The notes beneath the pieces are model-generated. The model did not search any database. It saw nothing but the letters and a program-made list of their open reading frames with translations, and was not told the DNA's origin. Shown one piece after another: positions 19,524 to 34,841 of a stretch of DNA of 64,000 nt (positions are counted from its first letter, which is position 1; every line of letters starts with the position of its first letter). The stretch comes from Thiobacillus sp. SCUT-2 (GTDB taxonomy: Bacteria > Pseudomonadota > Gammaproteobacteria > Burkholderiales > Thiobacillaceae). The DNA lies in assembly GCF_035621355.1 (NCBI RefSeq), contig NZ_CP141769.1, positions 1,364,001 through 1,428,000 of the forward strand. The letters run 5' to 3'. The translations under genes and the position numbers were made by a program.

Positions 19524-19997
19524 ATGAAAACGCTCGTGCTCGGCATCGGCAACACCCTGCTCACCGACGAAGGCGTGGGGGTGCACGTGCTGCAGGCGCT
19601 CGAACCCGAGCTCGGCCATCGCGACGACGTGACGCTGCTCGACGGCGGCACGCTCTCCTTCACGCTTGCGGGGCCGATCGAGGAGGCGGATGCGCTGATC
19701 GTCGTCGACGCCGCCAACATCAAGACCCGGCCCGGCGAATGGGCGCTGCTGGAGGGGAACGACATGGATGCCTTCCTGATGGCCAACCGCAAGGCGTCGG
19801 TGCACGAAGTCGGGCTCACCGACCTGCGCGCGATCGCCTTGCTGGCGGGCCACTGGCCCGCGAAGCGCGCGATGCTCGCCATCCAGCCCGCGGTCATCGA
19901 CTGGGGCGAGGCGCCCACGCCTGCGGTCGCCGCTGCCATTCCGCCGGTGTGTGCCGCCATCGTCGAACAGATCCGGACCTGGAACCATGTCGCTTGA
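19524..19997 (+). CDS. hynD: hydrogenase maturation endopeptidase (HyaD/HupD/HynD family)
   Basis: This is a 157-residue nickel-dependent protease that removes the C-terminal peptide of the large subunit after metal loading. The N-terminus MKTLVLGIGNTLLTDEGVGVH contains the metal-binding Glu. The conserved GGT and DA segments follow (LLDGGTLSF, IVVDAANI), then the late His in SVHEVGLTDL. The start is the ATG at 19524; upstream codons in the same frame have no homology. It is the first gene of the 15-kb plus-strand run and overlaps the next gene by 11 nt. Its substrate should be HynL, whose cleavable tail follows DPCIACAVH. Confidence 0.93.
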   Translation: MKTLVLGIGNTLLTDEGVGVHVLQALEPELGHRDDVTLLDGGTLSFTLAGPIEEADALIVVDAANIKTRPGEWALLEGNDMDAFLMANRKASVHEVGLTDLRAIALLAGHWPAKRAMLAIQPAVIDWGEAPTPAVAAAIPPVCAAIVEQIRTWNHVA

Positions 19998-20403
19998 CGC
20001 GATTCCGATCCACGTCGTTTCCGTTGCGCCCCCCGAGCCCGGGCTGACCGGCAATGCGCCGCCGCTTCTGCGCGAGCTGCACGAAATGGTGCGGCGCCTG
20101 CTCGACGGCGGCGAAGCGGCTGCCATCGACCTGTCGGCGCTGCCGCTGACGCCGGCCGACCTCGATTGGCTGCGCGGCAGGCTGGGCGAGGGCGAGATCG
20201 CCGTCACGCTCGAGGCCAACGGCGAGTCCCGGCTCGAGGAAACGGCCTGCCCGGGCATCTGGTGGGTGACGCATCGCAACGAACAGGGCGCCGTCGCCGC
20301 GCAGTTCATCGAAGTGACCTTCGTTCCCGAGCTCGTCAAGGCGCATCCCGCCGACGTCGCGCTCGGGCTGGAGCAGCTGGAATCGATGCTGGCCGACCTG
20401 TAG
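19987..20403 (+). CDS. hupH: HupH/HyaF-family hydrogenase expression/formation protein (short form)
   Basis: This is a 138-residue protein resembling the HupH/HyaF C-terminal domain (ALPLTPADLDWLRGRLGEGEIAV-like region, ETACPGIWWVTHRN, IEVTFVPELVKAHPADV). HupH-type proteins act late in maturation, probably on the small subunit or its iron-sulfur clusters. Full HupH proteins are about twice this length, so this is a single-domain version. The ATG at 19987 overlaps the protease gene by 11 nt; hynS follows after 58 nt. The family assignment is good; the molecular role is less certain. Confidence 0.8.
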   Translation: MSLDAIPIHVVSVAPPEPGLTGNAPPLLRELHEMVRRLLDGGEAAAIDLSALPLTPADLDWLRGRLGEGEIAVTLEANGESRLEETACPGIWWVTHRNEQGAVAAQFIEVTFVPELVKAHPADVALGLEQLESMLADL

Positions 20404-20461
20404 GCGGCGCTTCGCGCTCGGTCGGCAGGGCTGGGGTGTTTGACATCAGGAGAGACGCATC

Positions 20462-21541
20462 ATGCAGGGTCCGTTGATCGATACGCTTGCGCGGCGAGGC
20501 GTGACGCGCCGCACCTTCCTCAAGTACTGCGCCACGCTGGCCTCGATGATGGCGCTGCCGCCGAGCGCGGGGCGCGCGATGGCCGAGGCCATGGCTGCGG
20601 CCAGGCGGCCTTCGGTGATCTGGCTGCCGTTCCAGGAATGCACGGGCTGCACCGAATCGATCACGCGTTCGCACTCGCCGAGCATCGAAGGCATGATCTT
20701 CGACATGATCTCGCTCGACTACCAGGAGACGCTGATGGCCGCCGCCGGCCACCAGGCCGAGGAAGCGCGCGCCAACGCGATGAAGGACAACTACGGCAAG
20801 TACGTGCTGATCGTCGACGGCTCGATTCCGCTGGCGCAGAACGGGGCCTACTCGTGCATCGGCGGTCGCTCCAACGTCGACCTCCTGAAGGAAGCGGCGG
20901 CGGGGGCGGCGGCGATCGTCGCCATGGGGACATGCGCGTCCTTCGGCGGCATTCCGAAGGCGAATCCCAATCCCACCGGCGCCGTCTCGGTGGCCGACCT
21001 CATCAAGGACAAGCCCATCGTCAACGTGCCGGGCTGTCCGCCGATCCCGGTCGTGATGACCGGCGTGCTGGCGCACTACCTGACCTTCGGCAGCCTGCCC
21101 GAGCTCGACGACAAGGGCCGCCCGAAGGCGTTCTACGGCGACACCATCCACGACCGCTGCTACCGCCGGCCGTTCTACGACCAGGGCAAGTTCGCCAAGA
21201 CCTTCGACGACGAGGGTGCGCGCATGGGCTGGTGCCTGTTCGAGCTCGGCTGCAAGGGACCGGTCACCCACAACGCCTGCGCCACCGTGAAGTGGAACGG
21301 CGGCACCTCCTGGCCGGTCGAGTCGGGGCACGGCTGCATCGGCTGCTCGGAGCCCGATTTCTGGGACGGCGGCGGCTTCTACAAGGCGCTGTCGGTGCCG
21401 GCGAGCCCGGTGAAGATCGGCGCCGCGGCCGCCGTGGCCGGCGCTGCGGTCGGCGTGGGGGTGAGCGTCGCCAACCGCGTCAAGAAGCGCGCCGCCAAGG
21501 CCTCGCACGAGACGACCACGCTGGCCGATCTGGAGAAATGA
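20462..21541 (+). CDS. hynS: [NiFe] hydrogenase small subunit, Isp-type (group 1e)
   Basis: This is the 359-residue electron-transfer subunit. The Tat signal (RRTFLKYCATLASMM, about 16-30) exports the heterodimer. Cluster ligands are visible: ECTGCTES (proximal), GTCASFGG, NVPGCPP, HDRCYRR, WCLFELGCKGP and GCIGCSEPDFWD. The residue between the first two cysteines is Gly, and the later position is also Gly. The extra cysteines of oxygen-tolerant group 1d enzymes are therefore absent, and standard oxygen sensitivity is predicted. The C-terminus has a hydrophobic Ala/Val/Gly stretch. AGGAGA precedes the ATG by 8 nt. Isp1 and Isp2 lie between hynS and hynL, which defines the Isp type. Confidence 0.96.
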   Translation: MQGPLIDTLARRGVTRRTFLKYCATLASMMALPPSAGRAMAEAMAAARRPSVIWLPFQECTGCTESITRSHSPSIEGMIFDMISLDYQETLMAAAGHQAEEARANAMKDNYGKYVLIVDGSIPLAQNGAYSCIGGRSNVDLLKEAAAGAAAIVAMGTCASFGGIPKANPNPTGAVSVADLIKDKPIVNVPGCPPIPVVMTGVLAHYLTFGSLPELDDKGRPKAFYGDTIHDRCYRRPFYDQGKFAKTFDDEGARMGWCLFELGCKGPVTHNACATVKWNGGTSWPVESGHGCIGCSEPDFWDGGGFYKALSVPASPVKIGAAAAVAGAAVGVGVSVANRVKKRAAKASHETTTLADLEK

Positions 21542-21543
21542 GC

Positions 21544-22203
21544 ATGAACGACCTGCAGTTCCTGACCTGGGTACGCGGACCGGCGCTCGCGGCTGCCGTG
21601 GGCATCTTCGTGCTGGGCGTCGTCTGGCGCCTGCTCGAGATCTATTCGCTCGGCCGCAAGGCCGACCTCGCCGCGCCGCGCCACGCGGCCGGGGCCTCCG
21701 GCCTGCATACCGTCTTCCGCCGCTCGCTGCCCCCGCCCGGCATGCTGAAGCGCTCGCCGGTGAGCTATATCGGCGGCTACATCTTCCATATCGGGCTGGC
21801 GATCATCGTATTCCTGGGCGCACCGCACATCCTGCTGATCCAGAACCTGATCGGGCTGTCGTGGCCGGCGCTGCCCTCGCAGTTCATCGGCCTGGCGGCC
21901 GTGGTGACGATGGCGGCGATGGTGATGATGCTCGTCGACCGCATCAACAAGCCGGTCAAGCGCTTCCTCAGCACCTTCGAGGACTGGTTCACCTGGGCGG
22001 TGACCTTCCTGCCGGTGCTGACGGGCTGGATGGCGACGCAACATCTGCTGCTGCCCTACACCCGCATGCTGGCGCTGCACATCCTCACGGTGGAGGTCCT
22101 GCTCGTCGTGCTGCCCTTCACCAAGCTGTTCCACGGCTTCACGCTGTTCGGCTCGCGCTGGTACAACGGGCGCGTGAACGCGCACCGGGGCGTGCCGGTA
22201 TGA
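21544..22203 (+). CDS. isp1: Isp1, b-type cytochrome membrane anchor of the hydrogenase
   Basis: This is a 219-residue integral membrane protein of the NarI/DsrM-like type with about five hydrophobic segments. His residues sit in the helices suited to heme b (YIFHIGLAII, ATQHLLLPYTRMLALHIL, KLFHGFTLF). It should pass electrons from the hydrogenase and Isp2 to the quinone pool at the inner membrane. It starts 2 nt after hynS. The gene order small subunit-isp1-isp2-large subunit is the recognised arrangement of Isp hydrogenases in purple sulfur bacteria and thiobacilli. Confidence 0.92.
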   Translation: MNDLQFLTWVRGPALAAAVGIFVLGVVWRLLEIYSLGRKADLAAPRHAAGASGLHTVFRRSLPPPGMLKRSPVSYIGGYIFHIGLAIIVFLGAPHILLIQNLIGLSWPALPSQFIGLAAVVTMAAMVMMLVDRINKPVKRFLSTFEDWFTWAVTFLPVLTGWMATQHLLLPYTRMLALHILTVEVLLVVLPFTKLFHGFTLFGSRWYNGRVNAHRGVPV

Positions 22204-22255
22204 GCGGCCGCGCCTGTCACCCGGATCTGTCCTGCATCGCCATGGAGGAAGCCGC

Positions 22256-23518
22256 ATGAGCGCCTCGCTGGAAAAGGGCCTCCACGCCCTGAAGGAAGTC
22301 ATCGACGCCCCGATCGCGAGCTATTTCAACAGCTGCGTCCACTGCGGACTGTGCGCGGAAGCCTGCCTGTTCTACACGGAGACGGGCGATCCCAAATACA
22401 CGCCGATCCACAAGCTCGAACCGCTGCGCCGCGTCTACGAGCAGGAATACACGCTGCTCGGCCGATTGAAGAAGATGGCCGGCCTGTCGAAGCCGGTGAC
22501 CGACGCCGAGCTCGACGCCTGGCAGGAACTGGTCTACGACAGCTGCACGATGTGCGGGCGCTGCTCGATGGTCTGCCCGGTCGGCAACGACCTCGTCTAC
22601 ATGGTGCGCAAGCTGCGCGAAGGCATGGCGGTGTCCGGCCACGTGCCGGACGGCATCAGGAGCGCGACCGCGCGGACGGTCGAGCAGGGCGGACCGATGG
22701 GCCTGAAGTGGCCGGCCGTCGCCAACGTGCTCAGGCACGCCGAGGAGAACACCGGCGTGAAGATCCCGGTCGACCAGGAAGGCGCCGACTACCTCGTGCT
22801 GCTGTCGTCGATGGAGATCGTCAACTACCCGGAATACATCGAAGCGCTCGCCAAGATCTTCCGCAAGGCGGGGCTCAGCTTCACGCTCGCATCCGATGCC
22901 TTCGAGGCCACCAACGCAGGCATCCAGATCGGCAATTCGGACCTCGCGAAGGTGATCGTGTCGCGCATCGTCGACGCCGCCGAGCGCCTCAAGGTCAAGC
23001 GCGTGCTGTCGCCCGAGTGCGGCCATGCCTACATGGCGATCCGCTGGGAGGGCCCCAACCTGGTCGGGCGGCGCTTCGGCTTCGCGGTCGTCCACGTGCT
23101 GGAACTGCTCGACGAACTGCGGCGCAAGGGCGTGCTCAAGATGAAGGACCGCATCAAGGACCCGCTGATCCTGCACGACCCCTGCCAGATCGTGCGCCGC
23201 GGCGGCGTGCTGCAGGCGCCCGAGCTGCTGATCAACCAGGTCGCCGAGAACTACATCCCGATCGCCGACAAGCAGAAGATGAACTGGTGCTGCGGCGGCG
23301 GCGGCGGCGCGTCGGCGATCCACACGGAACCGGCCGAGGCGCTGCGCGCCAAGGCGTTCAAGATCAAGAAGCGCCAGATCGAGGAGGCGGGCGTCGGCAC
23401 GATGGTGACCTTCTGCGCCAACTGCCGCATCACGATCGAGGAAGGGTTCGACCACTACGAGATGAATACCAAACTGCTCGGCCTGACCGAGCTGCTGGCG
23501 GAACATCTGGAGGACTGA
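22256..23518 (+). CDS. isp2: Isp2, HdrD/DsrK-like iron-sulfur protein of the hydrogenase
   Basis: This is a 420-residue cytoplasm-facing iron-sulfur protein. Two ferredoxin motifs (CVHCGLCAEAC about 24-34 and CTMCGRCSMVCP about 98-109) bind 4Fe-4S clusters. The C-terminal CCG-type domain has NWCCGGGGG with CANC (about 345-395); the first CCG repeat is reduced to a single ECG. It resembles HdrD and DsrK and is predicted to connect with Isp1 as DsrK does with DsrM. A GGAGGAA stretch precedes the ATG. hynL starts 4 nt after it. Confidence 0.92.
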   Translation: MSASLEKGLHALKEVIDAPIASYFNSCVHCGLCAEACLFYTETGDPKYTPIHKLEPLRRVYEQEYTLLGRLKKMAGLSKPVTDAELDAWQELVYDSCTMCGRCSMVCPVGNDLVYMVRKLREGMAVSGHVPDGIRSATARTVEQGGPMGLKWPAVANVLRHAEENTGVKIPVDQEGADYLVLLSSMEIVNYPEYIEALAKIFRKAGLSFTLASDAFEATNAGIQIGNSDLAKVIVSRIVDAAERLKVKRVLSPECGHAYMAIRWEGPNLVGRRFGFAVVHVLELLDELRRKGVLKMKDRIKDPLILHDPCQIVRRGGVLQAPELLINQVAENYIPIADKQKMNWCCGGGGGASAIHTEPAEALRAKAFKIKKRQIEEAGVGTMVTFCANCRITIEEGFDHYEMNTKLLGLTELLAEHLED

Positions 23519-23522
23519 CTAC

Positions 23523-25316
23523 ATGACCACAGCACAACGCGTCGTCGTCGACCCGATCACGCGCATCGAGGGGCATCTGCGCATCGAGGCCGAAACCGAC
23601 GCCGGCGGCAAGATCACCCGCGCCTATTCGGCCGGCACCATGGTGCGCGGCATCGAGATCATCCTGCGCGGCCGCGATCCGCGCGATGCCTGGGCCTTCG
23701 CGCAGCGCATCTGCGGCGTCTGCACCCTGGTGCACGGCATCGCGTCGGTGCGCGCGGTCGAGGATGCGCTGCATCGCGCGATCCCCAGCTACGCGATCCC
23801 GAAGAACGCCGAGCTGATCCGCAACCTGATGATCGCGGCGCAGTTCGTGCACGACCACGTCATGCACTTCTACCATCTGCACGCGCTCGACTGGGTCGAC
23901 GTGGTATCGGCGCTGAAGGCCGATCCGAAGGCGACCTCGGCGCTGGCACAGGGCATTTCCAGCTATCCGAAGTCGTCGCCCGGCTACTTCGCCGACGTGC
24001 AGAAGAAGGTCAAGACCTTCGTCGAGCAGGGCCAGCTCGGCATCTTCGCCAACGCCTACTGGGGCCATCCCGCCTACAAGCTGCCGCCGGAGGCCAACCT
24101 GATGGCGGTGGCGCACTACCTCGATGCGCTGGCCTGGCAGCGCGACGTCGTGAAGCTGCACACGATCTTCGGCGGCAAGAATCCGCACCCCAACTTCCTC
24201 GTCGGCGGCGTGCCCTCGGCCATATCCGTCCAGCCCGGCGCGGGCCACGGCCACGGCGGGCCGCATTATCGGGGCGGGCAGGATGCCACCGCGCTCAACA
24301 TCGTCGGCCTCGAGACGGTGCAGAACGTGATCCGGCAGATGCGCGAGTTCGTCGACCAGGTCTACGTGCCCGACACGCTGGCGATCGCCGGCTTCTACAA
24401 GGAGTGGGGCGGCATGGGCGAGGGGCTGGGCAACTTCCTGTCGTTCGGCGACCTGCCGTCGAAAGGCTTCTGGGAGTCCGATTCCTTCCTGATCCCGCGC
24501 GGGGTGATCCTCAACCGCGATCTCTCGACCGTGCATCCGATCGACCTCGACGACGACAAGGAGATCCAGGAGTTCGTCAGCCATTCCTGGTACAAGTACG
24601 GCGGCGGCGACGCGCAGGGCCTGCATCCGTTCAAGGGCGAGACCGAGCTTCACTACACGGGCCCCAAGCCGCCCTACGAACATCTCGACGTCGACCACAA
24701 GTATTCGTGGCTGAAGTCGCCGCGCTGGAAGGGTCACGCGATGGAAGTCGGCCCGCTGGCGCGGGTGCTGATGATGTACGCGAGCGGCAACGCGCAGGCC
24801 AGGGAGCTCGTGGGCTACACGCTGAAGACGCTGAACGTGCCGGCGCAGGCGCTGTTCTCGACGCTGGGGCGCACGGCGGCGCGCACGCTCGAGACCAAGA
24901 TCCTCGCCGACGCCATGCAGGGGTGGTACGACGAACTCGTCGCCAACATCAAGGCGGGCGATCTCAAGACCTTCAACGAGCAGTACTGGGAGCCCTCAAG
25001 CTGGCCGCGCCACATGCAGGGCGTGGGCCTGATGGAAGCGCCGCGCGGCGGCCTCTCCCACTGGATCGTCGTCGACGACGGCAAGATCAGCAACTACCAG
25101 GCCGTGGTGCCGAGCACCTGGAACGCCGGCCCGCGCGATGCCCAGGGCCAGCCGGGGGCCTACGAGGCGGCGCTGCAGCACAACCACGTCATGCACGACC
25201 CCAAGCAGCCGATCGAGATCCTGCGCACCATCCATTCCTTCGACCCCTGCATCGCCTGCGCCGTACACGTCACCGACCCGGACGGCGAGGAGCTCGTCCA
25301 GGTCAAGATCAAATAA
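23523..25316 (+). CDS. hynL: [NiFe] hydrogenase large subunit, Isp-type (group 1e)
   Basis: This 597-residue catalytic subunit splits H2 at the [NiFe] site. The N-terminal metal motif is RICGVCTLVHG (about 61-71) and the C-terminal one is DPCIACAVH (about 574-582). A 15-residue tail (from VTDPDGEEL) follows the His, and the HynD protease should remove it. RIEGHLRIE near the start is typical of group 1. The length is normal for the group. A His/Gly-rich loop (GHGHGGPH, about 240) is notable but not unusual. hupE follows after 32 nt. Confidence 0.96.
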   Translation: MTTAQRVVVDPITRIEGHLRIEAETDAGGKITRAYSAGTMVRGIEIILRGRDPRDAWAFAQRICGVCTLVHGIASVRAVEDALHRAIPSYAIPKNAELIRNLMIAAQFVHDHVMHFYHLHALDWVDVVSALKADPKATSALAQGISSYPKSSPGYFADVQKKVKTFVEQGQLGIFANAYWGHPAYKLPPEANLMAVAHYLDALAWQRDVVKLHTIFGGKNPHPNFLVGGVPSAISVQPGAGHGHGGPHYRGGQDATALNIVGLETVQNVIRQMREFVDQVYVPDTLAIAGFYKEWGGMGEGLGNFLSFGDLPSKGFWESDSFLIPRGVILNRDLSTVHPIDLDDDKEIQEFVSHSWYKYGGGDAQGLHPFKGETELHYTGPKPPYEHLDVDHKYSWLKSPRWKGHAMEVGPLARVLMMYASGNAQARELVGYTLKTLNVPAQALFSTLGRTAARTLETKILADAMQGWYDELVANIKAGDLKTFNEQYWEPSSWPRHMQGVGLMEAPRGGLSHWIVVDDGKISNYQAVVPSTWNAGPRDAQGQPGAYEAALQHNHVMHDPKQPIEILRTIHSFDPCIACAVHVTDPDGEELVQVKIK

Positions 25317-25348: not shown

Positions 25349-25921
25349 ATGAAGCCAAGCATCCTTTCCCGCGCCGTCACCCTGGTCGTTCTCTGCCTCG
25401 CGGCCGGAAGCGCGGCCGCGCATCCCGGCCACCTGGCGGCCGGCTTTGCCGGCGGGCTGGCGCATCCCTTCATGGGGCTCGACCACATGCTCGCGATGAT
25501 CGCGGTCGGCCTGTGGGCCGCCCAGTTGGGCGGCCATGCGCGCTGGGCCGTGCCGACGTCCTTCGTCGGTGCCATGGGTGCGGGCGGCGCGCTGGCGTGG
25601 ACGGGCGCCGTGCTGCCGCATGTCGAAACCGGCATCGCCCTGTCCGTGCTGGTGCTCGGTCTGCTGGTCGCGACCCGGCGCCAGTGGCCGGTGGCGGCCG
25701 GGGCGGCGATCGCGGCGGTTTTCGCGCTGTTCCATGGCTATGCGCACGGGCTTGAGATGCCGCAGGTCGCGTCACCCGTGCTGTACGCGCTGGGCTTCAC
25801 CGTGGCGACCATGAGCCTGCATGCCGTCGGCCTCGCCGCCAGCGTGGTCGGCCGCCGCGCGATGCAGCTCGCCGGCATCGCCATTACGGCGGCGGGCCTG
25901 ACCCTGGTGCTGGGCGTGTAA
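25349..25921 (+). CDS. hupE: HupE/UreJ-family nickel permease
   Basis: This is a 190-residue membrane protein with a signal-like first segment ending AAAHPGH, the HupE signature HPFMGLDHMLAM (about 45-56) and further hydrophobic helices, including ALFHGYAHGLEMP with conserved His. HupE proteins take up nickel for hydrogenase assembly. The start is the ATG at 25349, with GGAG upstream. The first ATPase gene begins 15 nt after the stop. The family is clear; the direct nickel role is known for homologues only. Confidence 0.9.
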   Translation: MKPSILSRAVTLVVLCLAAGSAAAHPGHLAAGFAGGLAHPFMGLDHMLAMIAVGLWAAQLGGHARWAVPTSFVGAMGAGGALAWTGAVLPHVETGIALSVLVLGLLVATRRQWPVAAGAAIAAVFALFHGYAHGLEMPQVASPVLYALGFTVATMSLHAVGLAASVVGRRAMQLAGIAITAAGLTLVLGV

Positions 25922-25936: not shown

Positions 25937-26254
25937 GTGGCCGACGAACTGCAGCGACTGCTCGACGCCGAGGCGCGCGCCCAGGCGGCGATCGACGCCG
26001 CCAGCCGCGAGCGCCAGGGCATGATCGATGCCGCGCTCGCCGCAGCGCGCGACGCGGATGCCCGCTTCGAGGCCGGCCGCAGCGAGTTGCGCGCGCCCTT
26101 TCTCCACGAGGCGCAGCTGCGCGCCGACCAGGCGGTGGCGGAACTTGTGCGCAAGTATGCGGAACGCCAGCGCGCCCTGCGCGAGCTGGCCGCGCGCCAC
26201 GAGTCGGAGGCGGTGGATGCCGCGCTGACCCTCCTGCTCGATCCGGGCGCGTGA
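25937..26254 (+). CDS. ntpH: V/A-type ATPase peripheral stalk subunit (H/G-like)
   Basis: This is a 105-residue, highly charged, Ala-rich helical protein predicted to be almost entirely coiled coil (LLDAEARAQAAIDAASRER, AELVRKYAERQRALREL). In V/A-ATPases a small subunit of this kind pairs with subunit E to form the peripheral stalk. Sequence alone would not name it; the call rests on size, coiled coil and its place at the head of the ATPase operon. The start is a GTG at 25937, 15 nt after hupE, linking the hydrogenase and ATPase genes. Confidence 0.7.
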   Translation: MADELQRLLDAEARAQAAIDAASRERQGMIDAALAAARDADARFEAGRSELRAPFLHEAQLRADQAVAELVRKYAERQRALRELAARHESEAVDAALTLLLDPGA

Positions 26255-26306
26255 GCCGGTTGCGCGCCTGGTGAGGGGGCGCACGGCGACGTTTCCGCAT
26301 TCACCC

Positions 26307-27350
26307 ATGTCCGCCTATCTCGATACCCGCGTCAGTCTCTATTCCGGCCGCCTCTGGCGCGACGCGGAGCTCGATGCGCTGGTGAGCGTGCCGGACGGCG
26401 CGATGGCCGCCACGCTGGTCGCGCACGGCCTGCCGCAACTGGTCGCCGGCTACGATCGCCCGGAGGGTGCGCAGCACGATCCCCGTTCGCTCGAGCAGCG
26501 GATCATCGCCCGGATCCTCGACGAAACCCAGGTGTTGATCCGCCCGCTGGCCGGCGAGGCGCGCGCCTTCCTGGCCTTCTGGACGGCGCGCTTCGAGATC
26601 TCCAACGTCAAGACGCTGCTGCGCAGCAAGATGTCCGGCGAACGGCCGGCCGCCGCACTTGCGCGCCTGACGCCGATGGGGCCGTTCGCGCGCCTGGACA
26701 ACCAGGCGCTTGCCCACGCCGAGGACGTCGGCGAGCTGCTGCGCCGGCTCGAGGCCGGCCCGTATGCCGACATCGTCCGCCATGCCCGCCGCGCCTTCGA
26801 GCAGAGCCACGACCCGTTCAGCCTGGACGCCGCGCTCGACCGCAGCTACTACGAGGGCCTGGTGCTGCGTGCGCACCCGCTCGAGACGGAACTGGGGGCG
26901 CCGTTCCGCTCCCTCATGTCCAGCCTGATCGATCGCATCAACCTGGTGTGGCTGCTGCGCTACCGCTTCAACTACAAGCTGCCGCCGGCGCAGGTCTATT
27001 ACCTGCTGGTGGGTTCGCGCTATGGGCTGGGCGGCGCGCGCCTGCGCGAGCTGGCGGCGCTCGACAGCACGCAGGCGGTGCTCGCCGCGCTGCCGGCGCC
27101 GTGGCAGGCGCAGCTGGCTGGCGTGGCCGACATCCCCGGCGCGTTTGCGCGCATGGAAGACCTGGCCGCGGCGCAGGCGCGGCGTGTCCTGCGTTCGAAT
27201 GCGCCCGGCGTGGCGCGGTCCTTCGCCTACCTCATCCTGCGCGAACGCGACCTGCGGGCGGTACGCGCCGTTCTGCGCGGCCGGCATCTGGGCCTCGCCG
27301 AAGCCGACATTCGTACGGCGCTGCGCCGCGCGGCCAACGAGGATTTCTGA
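26307..27350 (+). CDS. ntpC: V/A-type ATPase subunit C (AC39 family)
   Basis: This is a 347-residue cytoplasmic subunit that couples the central rotor stalk to the membrane ring. It is Arg/Leu-rich and all-helical, with AC39-like features (SAYLDTRVSLYSGRL at the start, FEISNVKTLLRSK near 102, DRINLVWLLRYRFNYKL near 215). The start is the ATG at 26307; an earlier in-frame codon adds only unrelated residues. Its stop shares a base with the next ATG (TGATG), so translation is coupled to subunit I. Confidence 0.88.
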   Translation: MSAYLDTRVSLYSGRLWRDAELDALVSVPDGAMAATLVAHGLPQLVAGYDRPEGAQHDPRSLEQRIIARILDETQVLIRPLAGEARAFLAFWTARFEISNVKTLLRSKMSGERPAAALARLTPMGPFARLDNQALAHAEDVGELLRRLEAGPYADIVRHARRAFEQSHDPFSLDAALDRSYYEGLVLRAHPLETELGAPFRSLMSSLIDRINLVWLLRYRFNYKLPPAQVYYLLVGSRYGLGGARLRELAALDSTQAVLAALPAPWQAQLAGVADIPGAFARMEDLAAAQARRVLRSNAPGVARSFAYLILRERDLRAVRAVLRGRHLGLAEADIRTALRRAANEDF

Positions 27351-29233
27351 TGCTGCGCGCCGAACCCCTGCTGCGGATCGAACTGCTGATGCTGGCCTCC
27401 GAAGTGCAGGACGCCACGCTGGCGCTGGCGCGCTTCGGCGTATTCAGCCCGGCGGCATCCGCCCTCGACCAGCTCGCCGAATCGCCTGCGGCGGCCTATC
27501 GCGAAGCCTGGCTCGAAGCCGACGCGCGCCTCGCCAAGCTGCTCGAGCAGTGTGGCGACACCGGGCCGCTGCAGATTCCGGCGGATGCCGAGGCACCGGC
27601 ACTGGCCGACCTGGAAGAACTGAACGCCTGGCTGAAGGAGGTGTGGGGGGCCTGTCTCGCCTGCCACGAAAGCGAAATGCGCATCGCCGAGACGCGCAGC
27701 CACCTCGACGCCCTGGAGGAGACGCTGGGCAAGCTCGAAGGGCTCGATGTCGATCTTGCCAGGCTGCTGCGGCAGGACGGTCTTCTGGCGGTGCGCATCG
27801 GCAGCCTGCCGGCGGGCGAGGCCAGGCGCGTCACCGAGGCGTTGGCGATGAGCAGCCACCTGGTCGCGCGCTTCGACCAGGTCGGCGAGCAGGTGTTCGC
27901 GGTCATCGCCGGGCCGCGCGCGCGCCAGGACGAGGTGGCGGGACTGCTGTCCCAGGCGGGATGGCACGAGTTGCCGGTGCCCGCGGAATTGCGTACCCAC
28001 CCGCAGGCGGCGCGGGCCTGGCTGGAGGCGGAGCGGAGCCGGCTGCAAGCCGATTCCACGGCCGCCTGCGAGGTGCGCGACGGCCTGCACGACCGCTTTG
28101 GCCCGCGCCTGCGCGAGGCGCGCCTGCGGCTGGCACTGGCGCGGCCGCTTGCCGAGGCGGCGCTGGCCGGGGTGCGTGGCCGGGGGGGGCTTGCCGCCCT
28201 GTCGGGCTGGATTCCCAAGCGCCAGCTGGATGCGCTGCGCGCGACCCTCGACAGCCGCTTCCACGGCCGCTACTGGCTCGAACTGCGCGAGCCTGCGCCG
28301 CGCGACCTCGCCGAGGTGCCCTCGCTGGTGCGCTACCCGGCCTGGCTGGCCCCCTTCGTCCCGCTGGTGAAAAGCTATGGCGTGCCGCGCTACGGCGAAT
28401 TCGACCCGGTCCTGCCGTTCGCCTTCACCTATCTGCTGCTGTTCGGCGCCATGTTCGGCGACGTCGGCCACGGCGGCGTCCTGCTGCTGCTGGCGCTCGC
28501 GTTGCGCAAGCGCCTGGGACGCCTCGCCTGGGTGGGCGTGGCGGCCGGCGCGGTGTCGATGCTGTTCGGGCTGCTGTACGGCAGCGTCTTCGGCTTCGAA
28601 GACCTCCTTGCGCCGCTCTGGCTGTCGCCCCTGCACAATCCCGAGCGCGTCCTCGGCATCGCCGTCGCCTTCGGGGTCGGCTTCATCGGCTGCACGCTCC
28701 TGGCCAACATCTGGAACAGGGGCGTCGCCGGCCGCGCCGCCGAGGCCCTGTTCGACGCCGGTGGCCTGGCGGGGCTGGCGTTCTACCTCGGTTCGGTCGG
28801 CCTGCTGGCGAGCCTCGCAGGCCTTGCCTCGGTTGGCCGCGCGGCCGCCGTCGTCGCGGCGGCCGGCCTGGCCGCGATCGCGGCGTACAAGTGGACCGAG
28901 ATCCGGGGAACGCCGGGCGAGCGCATGCTCGTCGCCTTCATCGAGGTGCTCGAGACCGCCATCAGCCTGTTTTCGAATACGCTGTCGTTCATGCGGGTGG
29001 CGGCGTTCAGCCTCAACCACGTGGCCCTCGCGCTGGCCGTGTTCACGCTCGCGAACGGCATGCAGGCGGCCGGGCACGGGCTGACCGTCGTGCTCGGGAA
29101 CGCCGTCATCATCGTGCTGGAGGGGGGCATCGTCGCGATCCAGGCGCTGCGCCTGATGTACTACGAGGGCTTCTCGCGCTTCTTCAGCGGCGACGGCAAG
29201 TCCTTCGTGCCGCTGCGGCTGGCGGAGCAGTGA
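27350..29233 (+). CDS. ntpI: V/A-type ATPase subunit I (a-subunit, stator)
   Basis: This is the 627-residue membrane stator subunit that forms the ion half-channels. The N-terminal half (about 1-330) is a soluble coiled arm. The C-terminal half has about seven membrane helices, starting at PVLPFAFTYLLLFGAMFGDVGHG. It includes the ion-path segment EVLETAISLFSNTLSFMRVAAFSLNH, whose Arg faces the rotor carboxylate, and the end YYEGFSRFFSGDG. The start is coupled to subunit C. A heptamer repeat begins within its last codons. Confidence 0.92.
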   Translation: MLRAEPLLRIELLMLASEVQDATLALARFGVFSPAASALDQLAESPAAAYREAWLEADARLAKLLEQCGDTGPLQIPADAEAPALADLEELNAWLKEVWGACLACHESEMRIAETRSHLDALEETLGKLEGLDVDLARLLRQDGLLAVRIGSLPAGEARRVTEALAMSSHLVARFDQVGEQVFAVIAGPRARQDEVAGLLSQAGWHELPVPAELRTHPQAARAWLEAERSRLQADSTAACEVRDGLHDRFGPRLREARLRLALARPLAEAALAGVRGRGGLAALSGWIPKRQLDALRATLDSRFHGRYWLELREPAPRDLAEVPSLVRYPAWLAPFVPLVKSYGVPRYGEFDPVLPFAFTYLLLFGAMFGDVGHGGVLLLLALALRKRLGRLAWVGVAAGAVSMLFGLLYGSVFGFEDLLAPLWLSPLHNPERVLGIAVAFGVGFIGCTLLANIWNRGVAGRAAEALFDAGGLAGLAFYLGSVGLLASLAGLASVGRAAAVVAAAGLAAIAAYKWTEIRGTPGERMLVAFIEVLETAISLFSNTLSFMRVAAFSLNHVALALAVFTLANGMQAAGHGLTVVLGNAVIIVLEGGIVAIQALRLMYYEGFSRFFSGDGKSFVPLRLAEQ

Positions 29234-29304: not shown

Positions 29305-29742
29305 ATGACTGGATTGATCGCATGCCTGGTGCTGCCCGTGGCGGCGACGCTGGGCGCCGGAATCTGGCTCGAGCTGAAGCCGCGCCGGCTTTCCGCCGCG
29401 TGGCTGAAGGGCGGGCTGCTGGCCAACGTCGCGCTGTTCGGCCTGGGGCTTGCCACCGTCATGCTGGTCGGCGTGCAGGACGTGCTGGCCGCGGAGCCTG
29501 CCGCAGCCGCCGCCGGCGGCATCACGCTCGGCCAGGGCCTCGCGCTGCTCGGCATCGGCTTGCCGACGGGCCTCGCCGCGATCGCCGCCGCGCTGGCGCT
29601 CGGGCCGATCGGCTCGGCCGCGCTCGCCGTCATCGCCGAGAAGCCGGAGATGTTCGGCCGCACCCTGGTCTACATGGGACTGGCCGAAGGGATCGCGATC
29701 TACGGCCTGGTGATGTCGATCCTGCTGCTCGGCAAGCTCTGA
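29305..29742 (+). CDS. ntpK: V/A-type ATPase proteolipid subunit K (c-ring)
   Basis: This is a 145-residue four-helix proteolipid. Helices lie at about 1-22, 36-57, 74-104 and 114-143. The only membrane-buried carboxylate is Glu in GLAEGIAIYGLVMSILLL (helix 4), so there is one ion site per four helices, as in V-type rings. The first hairpin has no acidic residue. The LPxTQ-type sodium signature of Enterococcus NtpK is not evident, which leans towards protons, but this is weak evidence. AGGAGGAGA precedes the ATG. It is separated from ntpI by the heptamer repeat. Confidence 0.9.
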   Translation: MTGLIACLVLPVAATLGAGIWLELKPRRLSAAWLKGGLLANVALFGLGLATVMLVGVQDVLAAEPAAAAAGGITLGQGLALLGIGLPTGLAAIAAALALGPIGSAALAVIAEKPEMFGRTLVYMGLAEGIAIYGLVMSILLLGKL

Positions 29743-29743: not shown

Positions 29744-30073
29744 ATGCCGGCCGCCGGAAGCGCCCGTCTCGTCGTCCTCGGCAGCGCCGGCCTGGCCGAC
29801 GGCTTCAGCCTCATCGGGGCCGAGGTCCATCCGGATGCCGATCCCGCGACCGTCGAGCGGGTGCTCGAGCAGCTGGTCCGCAGCGGCGAGCCCGCCCTGG
29901 TGCTGCTGGAAACGCCGCTCGCGCATGCCGGCGGACCCTGGCTCGATCGCCTGCGCAGCGAAGGCGGCCAGATCGTCATCACCGAACTGCCGCCGCTGCC
30001 GGCGCCCCAGGCCTACGCGCCGGCCGTCGATGCCGTCGTACGCGCGGTGCTGGGGCCCGAGGCGCTGAAGTAG
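29744..30073 (+). CDS. ntpF: V/A-type ATPase subunit F
   Basis: This is a 109-residue central-stalk protein with the Rossmann-like pattern of subunit F (RLVVLGSAGLADGFSLIGAEV at the start, ALVLLETPLA, GGQIVITELPPLPAP). It starts 1 nt after ntpK stops. The match is to the fold and position in the operon, not to a long conserved motif. An 80-nt gap follows, with a small inverted repeat (CTTGAA at 30099, TTCAAG at 30114). Confidence 0.8.
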   Translation: MPAAGSARLVVLGSAGLADGFSLIGAEVHPDADPATVERVLEQLVRSGEPALVLLETPLAHAGGPWLDRLRSEGGQIVITELPPLPAPQAYAPAVDAVVRAVLGPEALK

Positions 30074-30153: not shown

Positions 30154-30804
30154 ATGGAAGCGGACGCGCAGGTTTCCCAACTCGAGCAGGCCCTGCTGCA
30201 GCAGGCCGAGACGCTCGCGCGCGAACAGTTGCAGAACGCCGAAGCGACCTGCGCGCGCATACGCGCCGAGTCGGCCGCGAAGCTCAAGCTGGCAGAGGAA
30301 CGCGAGATCCTCGCGGCCAAGGTCGAGGCCGAGCGGCAGGTGCGGCGGCAGATCCAGGCGGCGGAGACGCGGCTGTCGGCGGAACTCGACCGCCTGCGCT
30401 GGACGCTGACCGAGTCGACGCAGGCCGAAGTGCGGACGGCGTTCCGTCGCCTCGTGGCGGACCAGGCGCGCTATCTCGGCGTGCTCGAGGCGTGGCTGGC
30501 GGCGGCGGCGCAGGCGCTGCCGCCCGGCGACCTGGCGGTCGAGGTGCGGCACGAGGACGACGCGTGGCTGGCGCCGGTGTGGCCTGAAATCGTGGTGCGC
30601 GCGGCGCCGGGGCGCGCGGCGACGCTGGTCGCCCACGGCCAGCCGAGCGAAGGGGGCCTGCGGGTGCGGCTCGCCGACGACCGCGCCCGCGTCGACCAGA
30701 CCTTCGAGGCCCGCCAGGCGCGGCTTGCCGACGAGCTCGCGCGCGTCGTGATGGAACGGCTGTTCGCCAGCGCGCCCGATCTGGGCACGCTGGTGCATGG
30801 GTGA
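30154..30804 (+). CDS. ntpE: V/A-type ATPase subunit E (peripheral stalk)
   Basis: This is a 216-residue stalk subunit. The N-terminal ~100 residues are a long charged coiled coil (EQALLQQAETLAREQLQNAE, AEERE, VEAERQVRRQIQAAETRL). A compact C-terminal domain follows, ending GGLRVRLADDRARVDQTFEARQARL, which is typical of subunit E. The start is the ATG at 30154, with GGAG upstream. Its pairing partner should be the small coiled-coil protein at 25937. A long heptamer array begins in its stop codon. Confidence 0.85.
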   Translation: MEADAQVSQLEQALLQQAETLAREQLQNAEATCARIRAESAAKLKLAEEREILAAKVEAERQVRRQIQAAETRLSAELDRLRWTLTESTQAEVRTAFRRLVADQARYLGVLEAWLAAAAQALPPGDLAVEVRHEDDAWLAPVWPEIVVRAAPGRAATLVAHGQPSEGGLRVRLADDRARVDQTFEARQARLADELARVVMERLFASAPDLGTLVHG

Positions 30805-30933: not shown

Positions 30934-30947
30934 ATACAAGGATTCCA

Positions 30948-32747
30948 ATGGGCAAGATTCTTGAAATCAACGGGCCGCTGGTCAAGCTCGAACTGCCGCA
31001 GACGGTGATCGGCGAGCAGGTGCGCGTGGGGCGTCTTGGTCTCGTCGGCGAGGTGATCGGCCGCGAGGGCGAGACGGCGCTGGCGCAACTGTACGAGGAC
31101 ACCGCGGGGCTGCGGCCGGGCGAGGTGGCGGAGGGGCTGGGCTGGCCGCTCTCGGTGGAGCTCGGCCCCGGCCTGCTGGGGGCCATCTTCGACGGCGTGC
31201 AGCGACCGCTGGCGGCGGTGCGGGAACACAGCGGCGACCGCATCGCGCGCGGCGTCGCCGTGCCTTCGCTGGCACGCGACACGCGCTGGCATTTCGTGCC
31301 CGAGCCGGCGTGGCGCGCCGGCACGGCGCTCGCGGGAGGCGAGGTGCTGGGCAGCGTCCGGGAGACCGCCTCGATCACCCACCGGATCCTGGTTCCGCCG
31401 CTGCTCGGGGGCGAGCTGCTGGAACTGGCGCCGGAGGGCGACTACACGATCGAGGAAGCCATCGGCCGGGTGAAACTCGCCGACGGCCGCATCGAGAAGC
31501 TGCGGCTGTTCCACCGCTGGCCGGTGCGGACCCCGCGCCCCTTCCGCCAGCGCGACCACGCGGTGGCGCCGCTGTTGACGGGACAGCGCATCCTCGACAC
31601 CTTCTACCCGCTGCTGAAGGGCGGCAAGGCGGCGATCCCCGGCCCCTTCGGCGCCGGCAAGACCATGCTGCAGCAGCAGATCGTGCGCTGGTGCAACGCC
31701 GAGATCGTCGTCTACGTCGGCTGCGGCGAGCGCGGCAACGAGCTCACCGACGTGCTCGAATTCATGCCCGAACTCAAGGATCCGCATACCGGCCGCCCGC
31801 TTCTGGAACGCACGCTGCTGGTCGCCAACACCTCGAACATGCCGGTCGTGGCGCGCGAGGCGTCGATCTACGTCGGCATCACGCTGGCGGAATATTTCCG
31901 CGACCAGGGCTACGACGTCGTCATGGTCGCGGACTCCACCAGTCGCTGGGCCGAGGCGCTGCGCGAGGTGTCCGGCCGTCTCGGCCAGATGCCGGTCGAG
32001 GAAGGCTATCCCGCCTATCTCGGCTCGCGGCTGGCGGCCTTCTACGAGCGCGCGGGGCGCGTCGAGACGCTTGCCGGCGGCCACGGCTCCGTCACGCTGA
32101 TCGGCGCGGTGTCGCCGCCCGGCGGCGATTTCTCCGAGCCGGTGACGAGCCACACCAAGGAGATCATCCAGACCTTCTGGGCGCTGTCGAAGGAGCTCGC
32201 CGACGCGCGCCACTACCCCGCGGTCGACTGGCTCGAGAGCTTCTCGGGCTACGTGAGTTCCGCCGCGAAGTGGTGGGCGCAACACGTTGATCCGGATTGG
32301 GAAACCGCGCGCGCGGAAGCGCTCGACCTGCTCGCCGCGTCGGAAGAGCTGCAGCGCATCGTCAACCTGGTCGGGGTCGAGGCGCTGTCGTCGGAACAGC
32401 GCTGGACGCTCGAGGCGGCCAGCCTGATCAAGGAAGGGCTGCTGCAGCAGGCGGCCACCGACGAGGTCGACAGCTACGCCTCGCCCGAGAAACAGTTCGC
32501 GCTGCTGGCGGCACTGCTGGAGATCCGGCATCAGGGCCTGCGGCTCGTCAGGCTCGGCGTGCCGGCGCGGCGCCTGATCCAGCTGCCCCTGCTGGCCCAG
32601 GCGCGGCGCTGGAAGAGCCAGCACGGAGCGGACGACTTCGACGCGCTGAAGGCGAAGATCGCCGCGATCCCGGCGGCGTTCGAGCCGCTACTGGAGGAAT
32701 ACGGGACACCCGCTGCGGGCACCCAACCGGGGGAGGCTGCGGCATGA
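30948..32747 (+). CDS. ntpA: V/A-type ATPase catalytic subunit A
   Basis: This is the 599-residue catalytic nucleotide-binding subunit. The Walker A is GPFGAGKTML (about 230), followed by ERGNELTDVL (catalytic Glu region), the Walker B-type VMVADSTSRWAEALREVSGR, and the V-type non-homologous insertion between the N-terminal barrel and the P-loop. The start is the ATG at 30948 (MGKILEINGPLVKLEL), which begins the beta-barrel; a longer frame enters the repeat array. It overlaps ntpB by 4 nt (ATGA). Confidence 0.96.
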   Translation: MGKILEINGPLVKLELPQTVIGEQVRVGRLGLVGEVIGREGETALAQLYEDTAGLRPGEVAEGLGWPLSVELGPGLLGAIFDGVQRPLAAVREHSGDRIARGVAVPSLARDTRWHFVPEPAWRAGTALAGGEVLGSVRETASITHRILVPPLLGGELLELAPEGDYTIEEAIGRVKLADGRIEKLRLFHRWPVRTPRPFRQRDHAVAPLLTGQRILDTFYPLLKGGKAAIPGPFGAGKTMLQQQIVRWCNAEIVVYVGCGERGNELTDVLEFMPELKDPHTGRPLLERTLLVANTSNMPVVAREASIYVGITLAEYFRDQGYDVVMVADSTSRWAEALREVSGRLGQMPVEEGYPAYLGSRLAAFYERAGRVETLAGGHGSVTLIGAVSPPGGDFSEPVTSHTKEIIQTFWALSKELADARHYPAVDWLESFSGYVSSAAKWWAQHVDPDWETARAEALDLLAASEELQRIVNLVGVEALSSEQRWTLEAASLIKEGLLQQAATDEVDSYASPEKQFALLAALLEIRHQGLRLVRLGVPARRLIQLPLLAQARRWKSQHGADDFDALKAKIAAIPAAFEPLLEEYGTPAAGTQPGEAAA

Positions 32748-34126
32748 AGCACGTCGAATTCCGCACCGCCGCCTCCGCGCAGGGGGGCCTTGTCGTCATG
32801 CGCGGCGTGCCCGGCGTGGCGGCCGGCTCGCGCGTGCAGCTGCGCGATCACGCCGGGCGCCTGCGCGCCGGCCTGGTGATCCGCGCGGCCGACGACGCGG
32901 TGCTGGTCGAGGTGTTCGAGGGCACCGACGAACTCGACCTCGAGCGCACCTGGGTGCGCTTCCTCGACGAGCCGTTCAGGCTGCCCGTGTCGCGCGACAT
33001 CCTCGGCCGCGTGTTCAACGGCGCCGGGCTGCCGCGCGACGGCCGTCCGCCGATCATTTCGGCCGATCGCCGCGACGTCAACGGCGAGCCGCTCAATCCG
33101 GCCGCGCGCGCCTATCCGCGCGAATTCATCCAGACCGGCATCTCGGCGATCGACGGCATGAATTCGCTGACGCGCGGCCAGAAGCTGCCGATCTTTTCCG
33201 GCGGCGGCCTGCCGCACAACCGGGTCGCGGCGCAGATCGTGCGCCAGGCGAGGCTGCTCGGCGAGGAGGCGGCCGAGTTCGTGATCGTGTTCGCGGCCTT
33301 CGGCGCCTCGCACGCCGATGCGCAGTTCTTCCGGGAGAGCTTCGAGGAATCCGGCGTGCTCAACAAGGTCGTGATGTTCCTGAATCTCGCCGACGAGCCG
33401 GTGATCGAGCGCCTGCTGACGCCGCGCGCCGCGCTCACCGCCGCCGAGTATCTCGCCTACGATCTCGACACCCACGTGCTGGTCGTGATGACCGACATGA
33501 CCGCCTACGCCGAGGCCTTGAGGGAGGTCGCGGTGCTGCGCGGCGACGTACCGGCGCGCAAGGGCTACCCGGGCTACCTGTATTCCGATCTCGCCGAGCT
33601 CTACGAGCGGGCAGGGCGCATCAAGAACCGGCGCGGCTCGATCACGCTGATTCCCGTGCTGTCGATGCCGTCCGACGACATCACCCATCCGATTCCGGAC
33701 CTTACCGGCTACATCACCGAAGGCCAGATCGTGCTCGGGCGCGAGCTCGCCAACCAGGGCGTCTACCCGCCGGTGACGGTGCTGCCTTCCCTTTCCAGGT
33801 TGATGAAGGACGGCATCGGCAAGAACTTCACCCGCGAGGACCATCCGCACGTCGCCAGCCAGCTCTTCGCCAGCTACGCCAAGGCGCTCGAGGTGCGCGG
33901 GCTGGCCGCGATCATCGGCGCCGAGGAATTGAGCGAGGCCGACCGCCGCACGCTGGCGTTCGCCGAGGCCTTCGAACGCCGCTTCATCGGGCAGGGCGAG
34001 GACGAGGACCGCAGCATCCACGAGACGCTCAACCTCGCCTGGGACCTGCTGTCGATGCTGCCCCCGGAAGCGCTGGTCCGCGTGTCGGAGGACGAGCTGG
34101 CGAAGTATCACAAGGGGGCGGCGTGA
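32744..34126 (+). CDS. ntpB: V/A-type ATPase regulatory subunit B
   Basis: This 460-residue non-catalytic nucleotide-binding subunit alternates with A in the hexamer. In place of a functional P-loop it has IFSGGGLPHNRVAAQI (about 155), the family signature. TDMTAYAEALREV, GYPGYLYSDLAELYERAGR and SMPSDDITHPIPDLTGYITEGQ also match. GGGAGG precedes the ATG at 32744, which overlaps the ntpA stop. A heptamer repeat follows before ntpD. Confidence 0.96.
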   Translation: MKHVEFRTAASAQGGLVVMRGVPGVAAGSRVQLRDHAGRLRAGLVIRAADDAVLVEVFEGTDELDLERTWVRFLDEPFRLPVSRDILGRVFNGAGLPRDGRPPIISADRRDVNGEPLNPAARAYPREFIQTGISAIDGMNSLTRGQKLPIFSGGGLPHNRVAAQIVRQARLLGEEAAEFVIVFAAFGASHADAQFFRESFEESGVLNKVVMFLNLADEPVIERLLTPRAALTAAEYLAYDLDTHVLVVMTDMTAYAEALREVAVLRGDVPARKGYPGYLYSDLAELYERAGRIKNRRGSITLIPVLSMPSDDITHPIPDLTGYITEGQIVLGRELANQGVYPPVTVLPSLSRLMKDGIGKNFTREDHPHVASQLFASYAKALEVRGLAAIIGAEELSEADRRTLAFAEAFERRFIGQGEDEDRSIHETLNLAWDLLSMLPPEALVRVSEDELAKYHKGAA

Positions 34127-34137
34127 AGCCGGCGAGA

Positions 34138-34216
34138 AGTGAGCGGGAAGCGGTGAGCGGAAACCCCACTCACGGCGCTGCCTTTGCCGCGCCCTGCTTA
34201 CGGCTCGCCGCTCACC
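34138..34216. repeat. heptamer array with inverted arm between ntpB and ntpD
   Basis: AGTGAGCGGGAAGCGGTGAGCGG-type units start 12 nt after ntpB (written here as a class of GTGAGCG repeats). After a middle segment with GCTGCCTTTGCC, the inverted arm CTGCTTACGGCTCGCCGCTC plus ACC ends 4 nt before the ntpD start. The arm is shared with the two copies further upstream, and the middle with the ntpE-ntpA copy. Pairing of the two halves could mask the ntpD ribosome-binding site. Confidence 0.75.
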
Positions 34217-34220
34217 GATC

Positions 34221-34841
34221 ATGAGAAGACGCCTGTCCGTTCCGCCGACGAAGAGCGCGCTGCTGCAGGTGGGGCGGCAGGCGCGCTTCCTGGAGCAGGG
34301 CCGGCAGATGCTGGAGAAGAAGCGCGACCTGCTGACGCGCCTGGTGTACGAGCGGCTCGCGCAGTATCGCGAGCTGCGCGCGCAGACGCAGCGCGAGCTC
34401 GCCGAGGCCTACCGCTGGCTCGGCATCGTGCAGATGCGCATGGGCGAGCAGATGCTGCGGCAGGCGTCGGTCGGGCTGAAGCCGGCGGTGGCGATCCGCG
34501 TCGTGGCGCGTTCCAGCGTCGGCGTCGAATACCCCAGCGTCAGCGCCGAGCCGCTGCCGCTGCAGCCGGTCGGCCTGATGTGGACCGACGTCAGCTTCGA
34601 CGAGGCGCGCCTGCGGCTGCGCGAGCTGACGGTGACGCTGGCCCGCCTGGGCGAAGCCGAGAACGCCCTGTGGCGGCTGCTGGCGGCGAGCCGCAAGACG
34701 CAGAAGCGCGTCAACGCCCTGAAATACAACATTATTCCGCGCTACCAGGCGACGGTGCAGCACATTCGCGCCGCGCTCGAGGAGGACGAGCGCAACACGC
34801 TGTTCCAGATCAAGGTTCTGCGCGCACGGCGAGCCGGTTGA
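34221..34841 (+). CDS. ntpD: V/A-type ATPase central stalk subunit D
   Basis: This is a 206-residue rotor-axle subunit. It is a long antiparallel coiled coil (LQVGRQARFLEQGRQMLEKK at the start, RKTQKRVNALKYNIIPRYQATV near the C-terminus), which is the recognised signature of subunit D. The ATG at 34221 has no separate Shine-Dalgarno because the repeat arm ends 4 nt before it. It is the last gene of the 15-kb hydrogenase-ATPase run. Its 3' end overlaps the 3' end of the convergent PEP-CTERM gene by 32 nt. Confidence 0.92.
   Translation: MRRRLSVPPTKSALLQVGRQARFLEQGRQMLEKKRDLLTRLVYERLAQYRELRAQTQRELAEAYRWLGIVQMRMGEQMLRQASVGLKPAVAIRVVARSSVGVEYPSVSAEPLPLQPVGLMWTDVSFDEARLRLRELTVTLARLGEAENALWRLLAASRKTQKRVNALKYNIIPRYQATVQHIRAALEEDERNTLFQIKVLRARRAG

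Follow-up and report, generated by a model that had tools for sequence, protein, structure and literature searches.

A conserved gene block joining an Isp-type [NiFe] hydrogenase to a second, V/A-type ATPase in Thiobacillus and some of its relatives

A stretch of 64,000 nucleotides (nt) of the Thiobacillus sp. SCUT-2 genome (NZ_CP141769.1, positions 1,364,001 to 1,428,000; here called the window, with positions counted from its first letter) carries the genes of a [NiFe] hydrogenase followed directly by those of a vacuolar/archaeal-type ATPase (V/A-ATPase). The explanation that we consider likely is that this block is a conserved, probably co-transcribed unit made up of an Isp-type (group 1e) hydrogenase and a complete second, proton-coupled V/A-ATPase, and that it provides an alternative chemiosmotic module for H2 and sulfur metabolism when O2 or donor supply is low. 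The genes, their order and conservation, the co-occurrence of the two enzymes and the lack of Na+ ligands were computed for this work, and the evidence on co-expression and joint absence was taken from the literature.

Calling of open reading frames (ORFs) on the window gave an unbroken co-directional run of 16 consecutive genes on the + strand from 19524 to 34841, the first seven being hynD, hupH, hynS, isp1, isp2, hynL and hupE and the last nine encoding V/A-ATPase subunits G, C, I, K, F, E, A, B and D. Gaps within the run range from -11 to 143 nt, the largest lying between ATPase genes E (end 30804) and A (start 30948), and 15 nt separate hupE (end 25921) from G (start 25937). The first-pass annotation had described one co-directional run of about 15 kb, comprising the hydrogenase genes, hupE and nine ATPase genes with gaps of no more than about 145 nt; our own ORF calling reproduced its coordinates, gene count, gap limit and 15-nt spacing. 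It had also held that a strong promoter and terminator between hupE and the ATPase genes would speak against a joint unit. Consensus scans, which are weak evidence, found zero + strand terminator-like sites in the gap between hupE and G and no + strand sigma-70-like promoter in the run; the sole + strand terminator-like site of the 16 genes is inside the ATPase subunit B gene. The shared strand, the short gaps and the absence of a terminator-like site between hupE and G are the features of an operon, subject to the weakness of such scans, and the genes are probably read as one transcript in this organism. A scan of the window with Rfam at the gathering threshold and a tRNA scan found nothing.

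The same gene order was then found in other genomes, a check that the earlier annotation had proposed: it occurs in 15 other Thiobacillus genomes, in two sister genera and in two other families. Subunit C is present in 16 of 36 Thiobacillus genomes, SCUT-2 included (15 of the 35 others); the same search covered 24 genomes from other families, all without it. In all 15 others, hynL lies just upstream of the ATPase on the same strand and contig, and the order hynD-hupH-hynS-isp1-isp2-hynL-hupE-G-C-I-K-F-E-A-B-D is kept in every one as far as the contigs run, some draft copies having split frames; the gap between hupE and G is 3-68 nt in these relatives. Within the genus subunit C was never found without hynL, which is present in 16/16 genomes with C and in 9/20 without it (p 2.8e-4); 11 Thiobacillus genomes have no full-length hynL.

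An order-level sample of 399 genomes held 12 with subunit C, ten of which were evaluated, the SCUT-2 genome and G025 (already counted) being left out; G and L numbers are our labels for genomes and for stretches of sequence. The ATPase is linked to the hydrogenase in seven and unlinked in one (G764), and two (G600, G532) could not be evaluated because the contig starts at or just before the ATPase. The seven linked genomes are G746, a Thiobacillus; G690, G529, G489 and G719, of one sister genus; G630, of another genus of the family; and G569, of another family of the order. Linkage is also seen in G357, from another family of the class. Subunit C of G569 and G357 is 42-46% identical to that of the window, and G357, at 46%, has the full layout including the divergent hyp genes. 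Members of the four-genome sister genus have no hupE in between, hynL lying 60-322 nt from G. The block is present as well on metagenome contigs L089-L092, titled Tepidiphilus sp. J10, Gallionellaceae STA_18 and two Pseudomonadota (titles that may be wrong); on these, as in the genus of G489, hynL precedes G by 60 to 415 nt with no hupE in the interval. Some titled contigs may duplicate G genomes, and the coordinates of L093 are those of G600. Because the sister genus keeps the link without hupE, the link between hydrogenase and ATPase outlives changes in the intervening genes. Chance adjacency was rejected, since the order recurs across Thiobacillus and, beyond it, in two sister genera and two more families.

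Among 369 genomes sampled from the class, 22 carry subunit C, SCUT-2 included, and the neighbourhoods of 20 of the 21 others were fetched (G265, below the family cut-off, was left out). The internal gene order of these V-ATPase operons is that of the window wherever it could be read. In G140 (L105 2432-9711), and likewise in G259 (L106), genes for a formate dehydrogenase with isp1-like and isp2-like genes, lacking hydrogenase subunits, end about 300 nt before G; the beta and gamma subunits of the G140 enzyme scored over the NCBIfam cut-offs and alpha below, and the G259 copies, from the same genus, are 95-99% identical. In G187 (L114 4414-8866) a hydrogenase operon with NuoF/NuoG-like diaphorase subunits, of the NAD-linked type and presumably Hox-type, is divergent from G. 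No Hyn gene was found in the fetched stretch for the remaining 16 of the 20. Among these, G402 starts with the ATPase itself and G337 is split, while for G089, G207 and G230 the upstream sequence is short or the gene calls are poor. In 14 of the 16 the two predicted ORFs closest upstream were viewed as well; they include MoaA-like and heme-oxygenase-like genes (named by eye). A search of the phylum gave matches in 4 of 397 genomes, two of them over the cut-off; one of these is SCUT-2, and in the other, G797, the 2 kb preceding subunit G contain no Hyn gene.

At the level of whole genomes the two enzymes occur together in the class. With SCUT-2 left out, Isp-type subunit spacing was scored in 15 of 21 V-ATPase genomes and in 30 of 347 others (Fisher p 6e-11; the hand count equalled a script recount). 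The proxy was a distance of 2,200 to 3,123 nt from the small-subunit match to the large subunit; among the 59 V-ATPase-free genomes that gave a small-subunit match, 11 lacked a subunit pair on a single contig and were scored as not Isp. The small-subunit C-terminal domain of membrane-type hydrogenases was present in 17/21 V-ATPase genomes and 59/347 others (p 1.4e-9). A rough count by family gave 10/13 against 22 of about 154, the total of families having been deduced from code numbers and one family among the ten counting through a V-ATPase-free member. The link between V-ATPase and Isp-type hydrogenase is not obligatory, but the two are correlated.

Trees were built from subunit A, from A and B together, and from HynL. 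Near copies and the divergent G337 were dropped from the A tree, near copies and a deep Isp clade from the HynL topology test, and L088, a duplicate of L063, throughout; G569, whose B gene is cut, was left out of the A+B tree and placed by A alone. The A tree joins G569 and G357 as sisters (95/90) and sets them apart from Thiobacillaceae. The ATPases of Thiobacillaceae group together in the A+B tree, in a clade that takes in the unevaluable G532 but lies away from G357. In the HynL tree G569 and G357 both fall outside the Thiobacillaceae clade, one clade for all linked HynL receiving a p value of 0.029 in the approximately unbiased test (p-AU). These trees give moderate support to a second linked lineage, and the block may have arisen twice or may be old and retained in two lines. 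HynL proteins of V-ATPase-free Thiobacillus nest inside the linked HynL clade. Downstream of the V-ATPase-free locus of G011 the sequence is shared with the V-ATPase-bearing L087, as would fit either a gain or a loss of the ATPase at one site.

Evidence of a different kind comes from tubeworm symbionts. In the co-expression network of the Riftia symbiont, Hyd1e and V-type ATPases group with the reductive tricarboxylic acid cycle, and F1-ATPase, bc1 and cbb3 oxidase group with the Calvin-Benson-Bassham cycle; Hyd1e is up under H2S and O2 limitation (PMC11636981). The same two enzyme classes thus stand in one co-expression group there, apart from the F-ATPase, although the link is seen in expression data and here in gene order (PMC11636981). 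Symbiont HMS1 lacks both HyaBA, a group 1 hydrogenase, and the whole V-ATPase set, which are reported in all available vestimentiferan symbionts (PMC10300362). The passages of the two accounts do not take up gene adjacency.

Several observations weigh against a functional unit. Nine Thiobacillus genomes, mostly drafts, have hynL without subunit C; four of the nine loci end at most about 4.5 kb past hupE or hynL, so that absence there rests on whole-genome search of draft assemblies. In the 21 Thiobacillus genomes at least 90% complete the association is weak (hynL in 10/10 with C, 7/11 without; p 0.055). G764 of the order carries its V-ATPase unlinked, and only one of the 20 fetched class neighbourhoods (G357) has a Hyn operon directly upstream, on which ground a general rule that the V-ATPase sits behind a hydrogenase was rejected. 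The A+B tree, without G569, places G357 beside the unlinked G374 and G169, and a single clade of linked HynL is not rejected once G357 is left out (p-AU 0.075). The co-occurrence is uncorrected for phylogeny beyond the rough family count, and a shared lifestyle may cause it in part. HMS1 also lacks denitrification, menaquinone and cobalamin genes (PMC10300362), and Acidithiobacillus ferrooxidans is reported to make ATP by its F-type enzyme though it also has an Isp-type hydrogenase (PMC7735108). Of the H2-linked unit originally put forward, what stands is a real unit, additional to the F-type enzyme and conserved in relatives; the nine Thiobacillus genomes and the class neighbourhoods show that it is not obligatory.

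The adjacency could then be a neutral relic, a V-ATPase operon having landed behind a hydrogenase in an ancestor and been inherited with no joint function. One family holds most of the linked genomes, the ATPase operon is self-contained and sits elsewhere in most fetched class neighbourhoods, and the nine Thiobacillus genomes do with the hydrogenase alone. We nevertheless hold a relic to be improbable: the order is kept down to the level of G569 and G357, with or without hupE between, there are perhaps two linked lineages, the co-occurrence is seen also where linkage is not, and co-expression and joint absence are reported in symbionts (PMC11636981, PMC10300362).

The V/A-ATPase has the subunit set A, B, C, D, E, F, G, I and K, G being assigned only through aligned relatives. 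The G protein (105 aa) has no significant Pfam match on its own. In an alignment of 14 members, 13 match V-ATPase_G PF03179 (E up to 1, best 4.4e-8), the exception being the window's own, and a search of the PDB with the profile hits V-ATPase G chains (E 1.9e-5); because of these matches the enzyme looks complete. Subunit A carries the catalytic P-loop GPFGAGKT, and K of the window and of the relatives shown carries the conserved Glu (LAEGIAIYG). The best solved match of A is 1vdz_A, an A-type ATPase chain that we take to be archaeal. An F-type ATPase is encoded in a separate ordinary operon near 2.98 Mb of the 3.01 Mb single-contig genome, which bears out the initial statement that the V-type enzyme is extra to an F-type one. 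All nine subunits are shared with the proton V/A-ATPases of Thermus and archaea, and the K leader and hairpin are similar; the window differs in its order G-C-I-K-F-E-A-B-D, in the F-type enzyme alongside and in the place behind a hydrogenase. Thermus and archaea have other gene orders.

The Na+ ligands of Enterococcus NtpK, which we take to be T64, Q65 and Q110, read G, I and L in the window K subunit when it is aligned with the Enterococcus and Thermus rings, and K subunits of the aligned relatives likewise lack the ligand residues, so that the ATPase of the block is likely to be proton-coupled. The "separate ion pump" of the first-pass annotation is thereby refined to a second ATPase that most likely moves H+ and not Na+. 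Some bacterial V-ATPases are sodium enzymes, and a unit that couples H2 oxidation to sodium export through a V/A-type sodium pump was also weighed. Na+-type V-ATPases have been reported from an alkaline aquifer (PMC8547479), yet the missing ligands, together with a proton V-type ATPase reported in the sulfur oxidiser Thiohalobacter, where it is paired with a sodium F-type enzyme (PMC6504805), make a sodium pump very improbable here. The second ATPase is not a Na+-translocating N-ATPase of the F type, A and B matching V-type models over the cut-off. A pair of sodium F-type and proton V-type enzymes as in Thiohalobacter is disfavoured, the F-type c subunit of SCUT-2 having an Asp-type helix that we assume to be that of ordinary proton enzymes.

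The hydrogenase of the block is predicted, by its proteins and their order, to be an Isp-type (group 1e) [NiFe] enzyme. Both Isp genes lie between the subunit genes (hynS-isp1-isp2-hynL), HynS has the twin-arginine translocation (Tat) signal RRTFLK and HynL ends in DPCIACAVH; a Tat RR signal and a DPCxxCxxH end are marks of exported, protease-matured hydrogenases. Isp1 and Isp2 match TmcC/HmcE- and DsrK/HmcF-like models, both below the curated cut-offs, and Isp1 is putatively the heme b membrane protein of such enzymes. The HupE/UreJ-type permease presumably has a nickel role, and 3myr_B, the best solved match of HynL, is presumably from Allochromatium vinosum. The genome has one further but weak match to the hydrogenase large-subunit family, near 1.32 Mb. 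Gene order, subunit families and maturation genes are like those of the Isp-type hydrogenase of A. ferrooxidans; the window differs in having hupE and a complete V/A-ATPase behind, A. ferrooxidans being described, in the portion of the account available, with an F1FO ATP synthase only (PMC7735108).

Table 1. Genes of the hydrogenase-ATPase run and the adjoining maturation genes in the window
Feature	Position	Strand	Evidence
hynD, hydrogenase maturation protease (HycI family)	19524..19997	+	PF01750 E 7.5e-19
hupH-like hydrogenase expression protein	19987..20403	+	PF04809 E 4.3e-34
hynS, [NiFe] hydrogenase small subunit, Tat-type signal	20462..21541	+	TIGR00391 443 bits, over cut-off
isp1, membrane electron carrier (TmcC/HmcE-like)	21544..22203	+	NCBIfam TmcC 132 bits, below cut-off; no Pfam match
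isp2, Fe-S protein with CCG domain (DsrK/HmcF/TmcB-like)	22256..23518	+	PF13183, PF02754; NCBIfam DsrK 218 bits, below cut-off
hynL, [NiFe] hydrogenase large subunit	23523..25316	+	PF00374 E 1.4e-232; best solved match 3myr_B, 940 bits
hupE, HupE/UreJ-type permease	25349..25921	+	PF04955 E 5.4e-56
V/A-ATPase G (peripheral stalk), GTG start	25937..26254	+	PF03179 in 13/14 aligned members, not the window's own; PDB V-ATPase G chains by profile
V/A-ATPase C (AC39)	26307..27350	+	PF01992 E 1.3e-47, scanned as 26271-27350
V/A-ATPase I	27350..29233	+	PF01496 E 8e-26
V/A-ATPase K (c-ring), C-terminal hairpin with conserved Glu	29305..29742	+	PF00137 E 7.3e-16; alignments
V/A-ATPase F	29744..30073	+	PF01990 E 2.7e-6
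V/A-ATPase E	30154..30804	+	PF01991 E 9.5e-10
V/A-ATPase A, catalytic	30948..32747	+	NF003220 796 bits, over cut-off
V/A-ATPase B	32744..34126	+	NF003235 705 bits, over cut-off
V/A-ATPase D	34221..34841	+	PF01813 E 3.5e-42; one match in whole genome
hypC, hypA, hypB, hypD, hypF, hypE, maturation genes divergent from the run	13548..19371	-	Pfam matches for all six; hypE and hypB named via AIRS and CobW/HypB/UreG domains

A PEP-CTERM-like gene (weak match, E 0.011; 34810-35760, - strand) overlaps the end of ATPase D tail-to-tail by 32 nt. Efflux genes (OEP, AcrB-type and membrane fusion) lie at 4383-13092, close to the hyp genes; relatives of these are located downstream of hynL in G013 (L075), in which neither hupE nor an ATPase gene was found behind hynL. 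Elsewhere in the window, multi-domain sensor kinases cluster at 39586-50983 together with an EAL-domain regulator and a chemotaxis receptor that has PAS domains, and 55223-58414 encodes a type I restriction enzyme R subunit in a lower-GC region, with no gene call for about 0.8 kb before and 1.1 kb beyond its gene group.

For the working of the block we infer the transcript, the electron route and the direction of the ATPase. H2 oxidised outside with electrons passed to the inner face amounts to a gradient, by the logic of a half-loop. HynSL, exported via Tat, would split H2 at the periplasmic side, and membrane Isp1 would hand the electrons to Isp2 in the cytoplasm, from where they would reach sulfur-type or quinone acceptors; the protons would stay outside, making the gradient directly. 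The co-made V/A-ATPase would use or top up this H2-driven gradient, standing in for the F-type enzyme when O2 or the usual sulfur donor is scarce, and would act mainly, if reversibly, as an ATP synthase. The leader of the window K subunit resembles that of the Thermus c subunit in alignment, which suggests that mature K is a single hairpin with one carboxylate and hence capable of synthase work, such a hairpin being the design of a synthase-capable ring. As to direction, we lean slightly towards ATP synthesis under low energy supply.

The principal rival has the V/A-ATPase run as an ATP-driven proton pump that hydrolyses ATP from elsewhere and keeps up the gradient for reverse electron flow, for H2 evolution by the hydrogenase acting reversibly, or for pH balance. 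Bacterial V-type enzymes, for example that of Enterococcus, do pump ions. For hydrogenases of group 1e, activity in both directions has been described (PMC7735108), and the work on the Riftia symbiont considers H2 evolution when energy is limiting (PMC11636981). The Thermus-like leader and apparent single hairpin with one carboxylate nevertheless point to a synthase-capable ring, and the F-type enzyme of the organism could pump too; we regard the pump as unlikely.

V-type enzymes in sulfur or iron oxidisers have been described before, in Achromatium (PMC4530308), Thiohalobacter (PMC6504805) and Sideroxydans (PMC5178258), the last two beside an F-type enzyme; the available portions of these accounts draw no link to a hydrogenase, and for the Achromatium V-ATPase a calcite or vacuole role is proposed. 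A word-based search of mainly open-licence literature, with subscription journals mostly outside it, found no description of a hydrogenase-V-ATPase operon, in agreement with the first-pass annotation, which had known of none. The parts are known; the conserved combination is undescribed as far as this literature shows.

Returning to the H2-linked ATP synthase that we prefer, a broader and doubtful extension may be offered tentatively. The V/A-ATPase of sulfur-oxidising Gammaproteobacteria might be dedicated to the ATP end of a low-energy chemiosmotic circuit, with an Isp1/Isp2 complex, fed by an exchangeable periplasmic enzyme, at the redox end; that enzyme would be hydrogenase here and formate dehydrogenase in G140 and G259. 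Thiobacillaceae would have the entire circuit in one operon, switched on instead of the F-ATPase and cbb3 programme at scarce O2 or sulfide.

Two rotary ATPases in one bacterium pose the puzzle of what the second one does, and its operon tie to a particular hydrogenase gives an answer that can be tested. If that answer is true, it would supply a function for the V-ATPases of sulfur bacteria and tubeworm symbionts, for some of which calcite or vacuole roles have so far been guessed, and culturable Thiobacillus would be a possible model for second-ATPase function. Because the hydrogenase and second ATPase genes form one conserved block, they suggest that many Thiobacillus and some distant relatives have one separate, H2-linked energy system.

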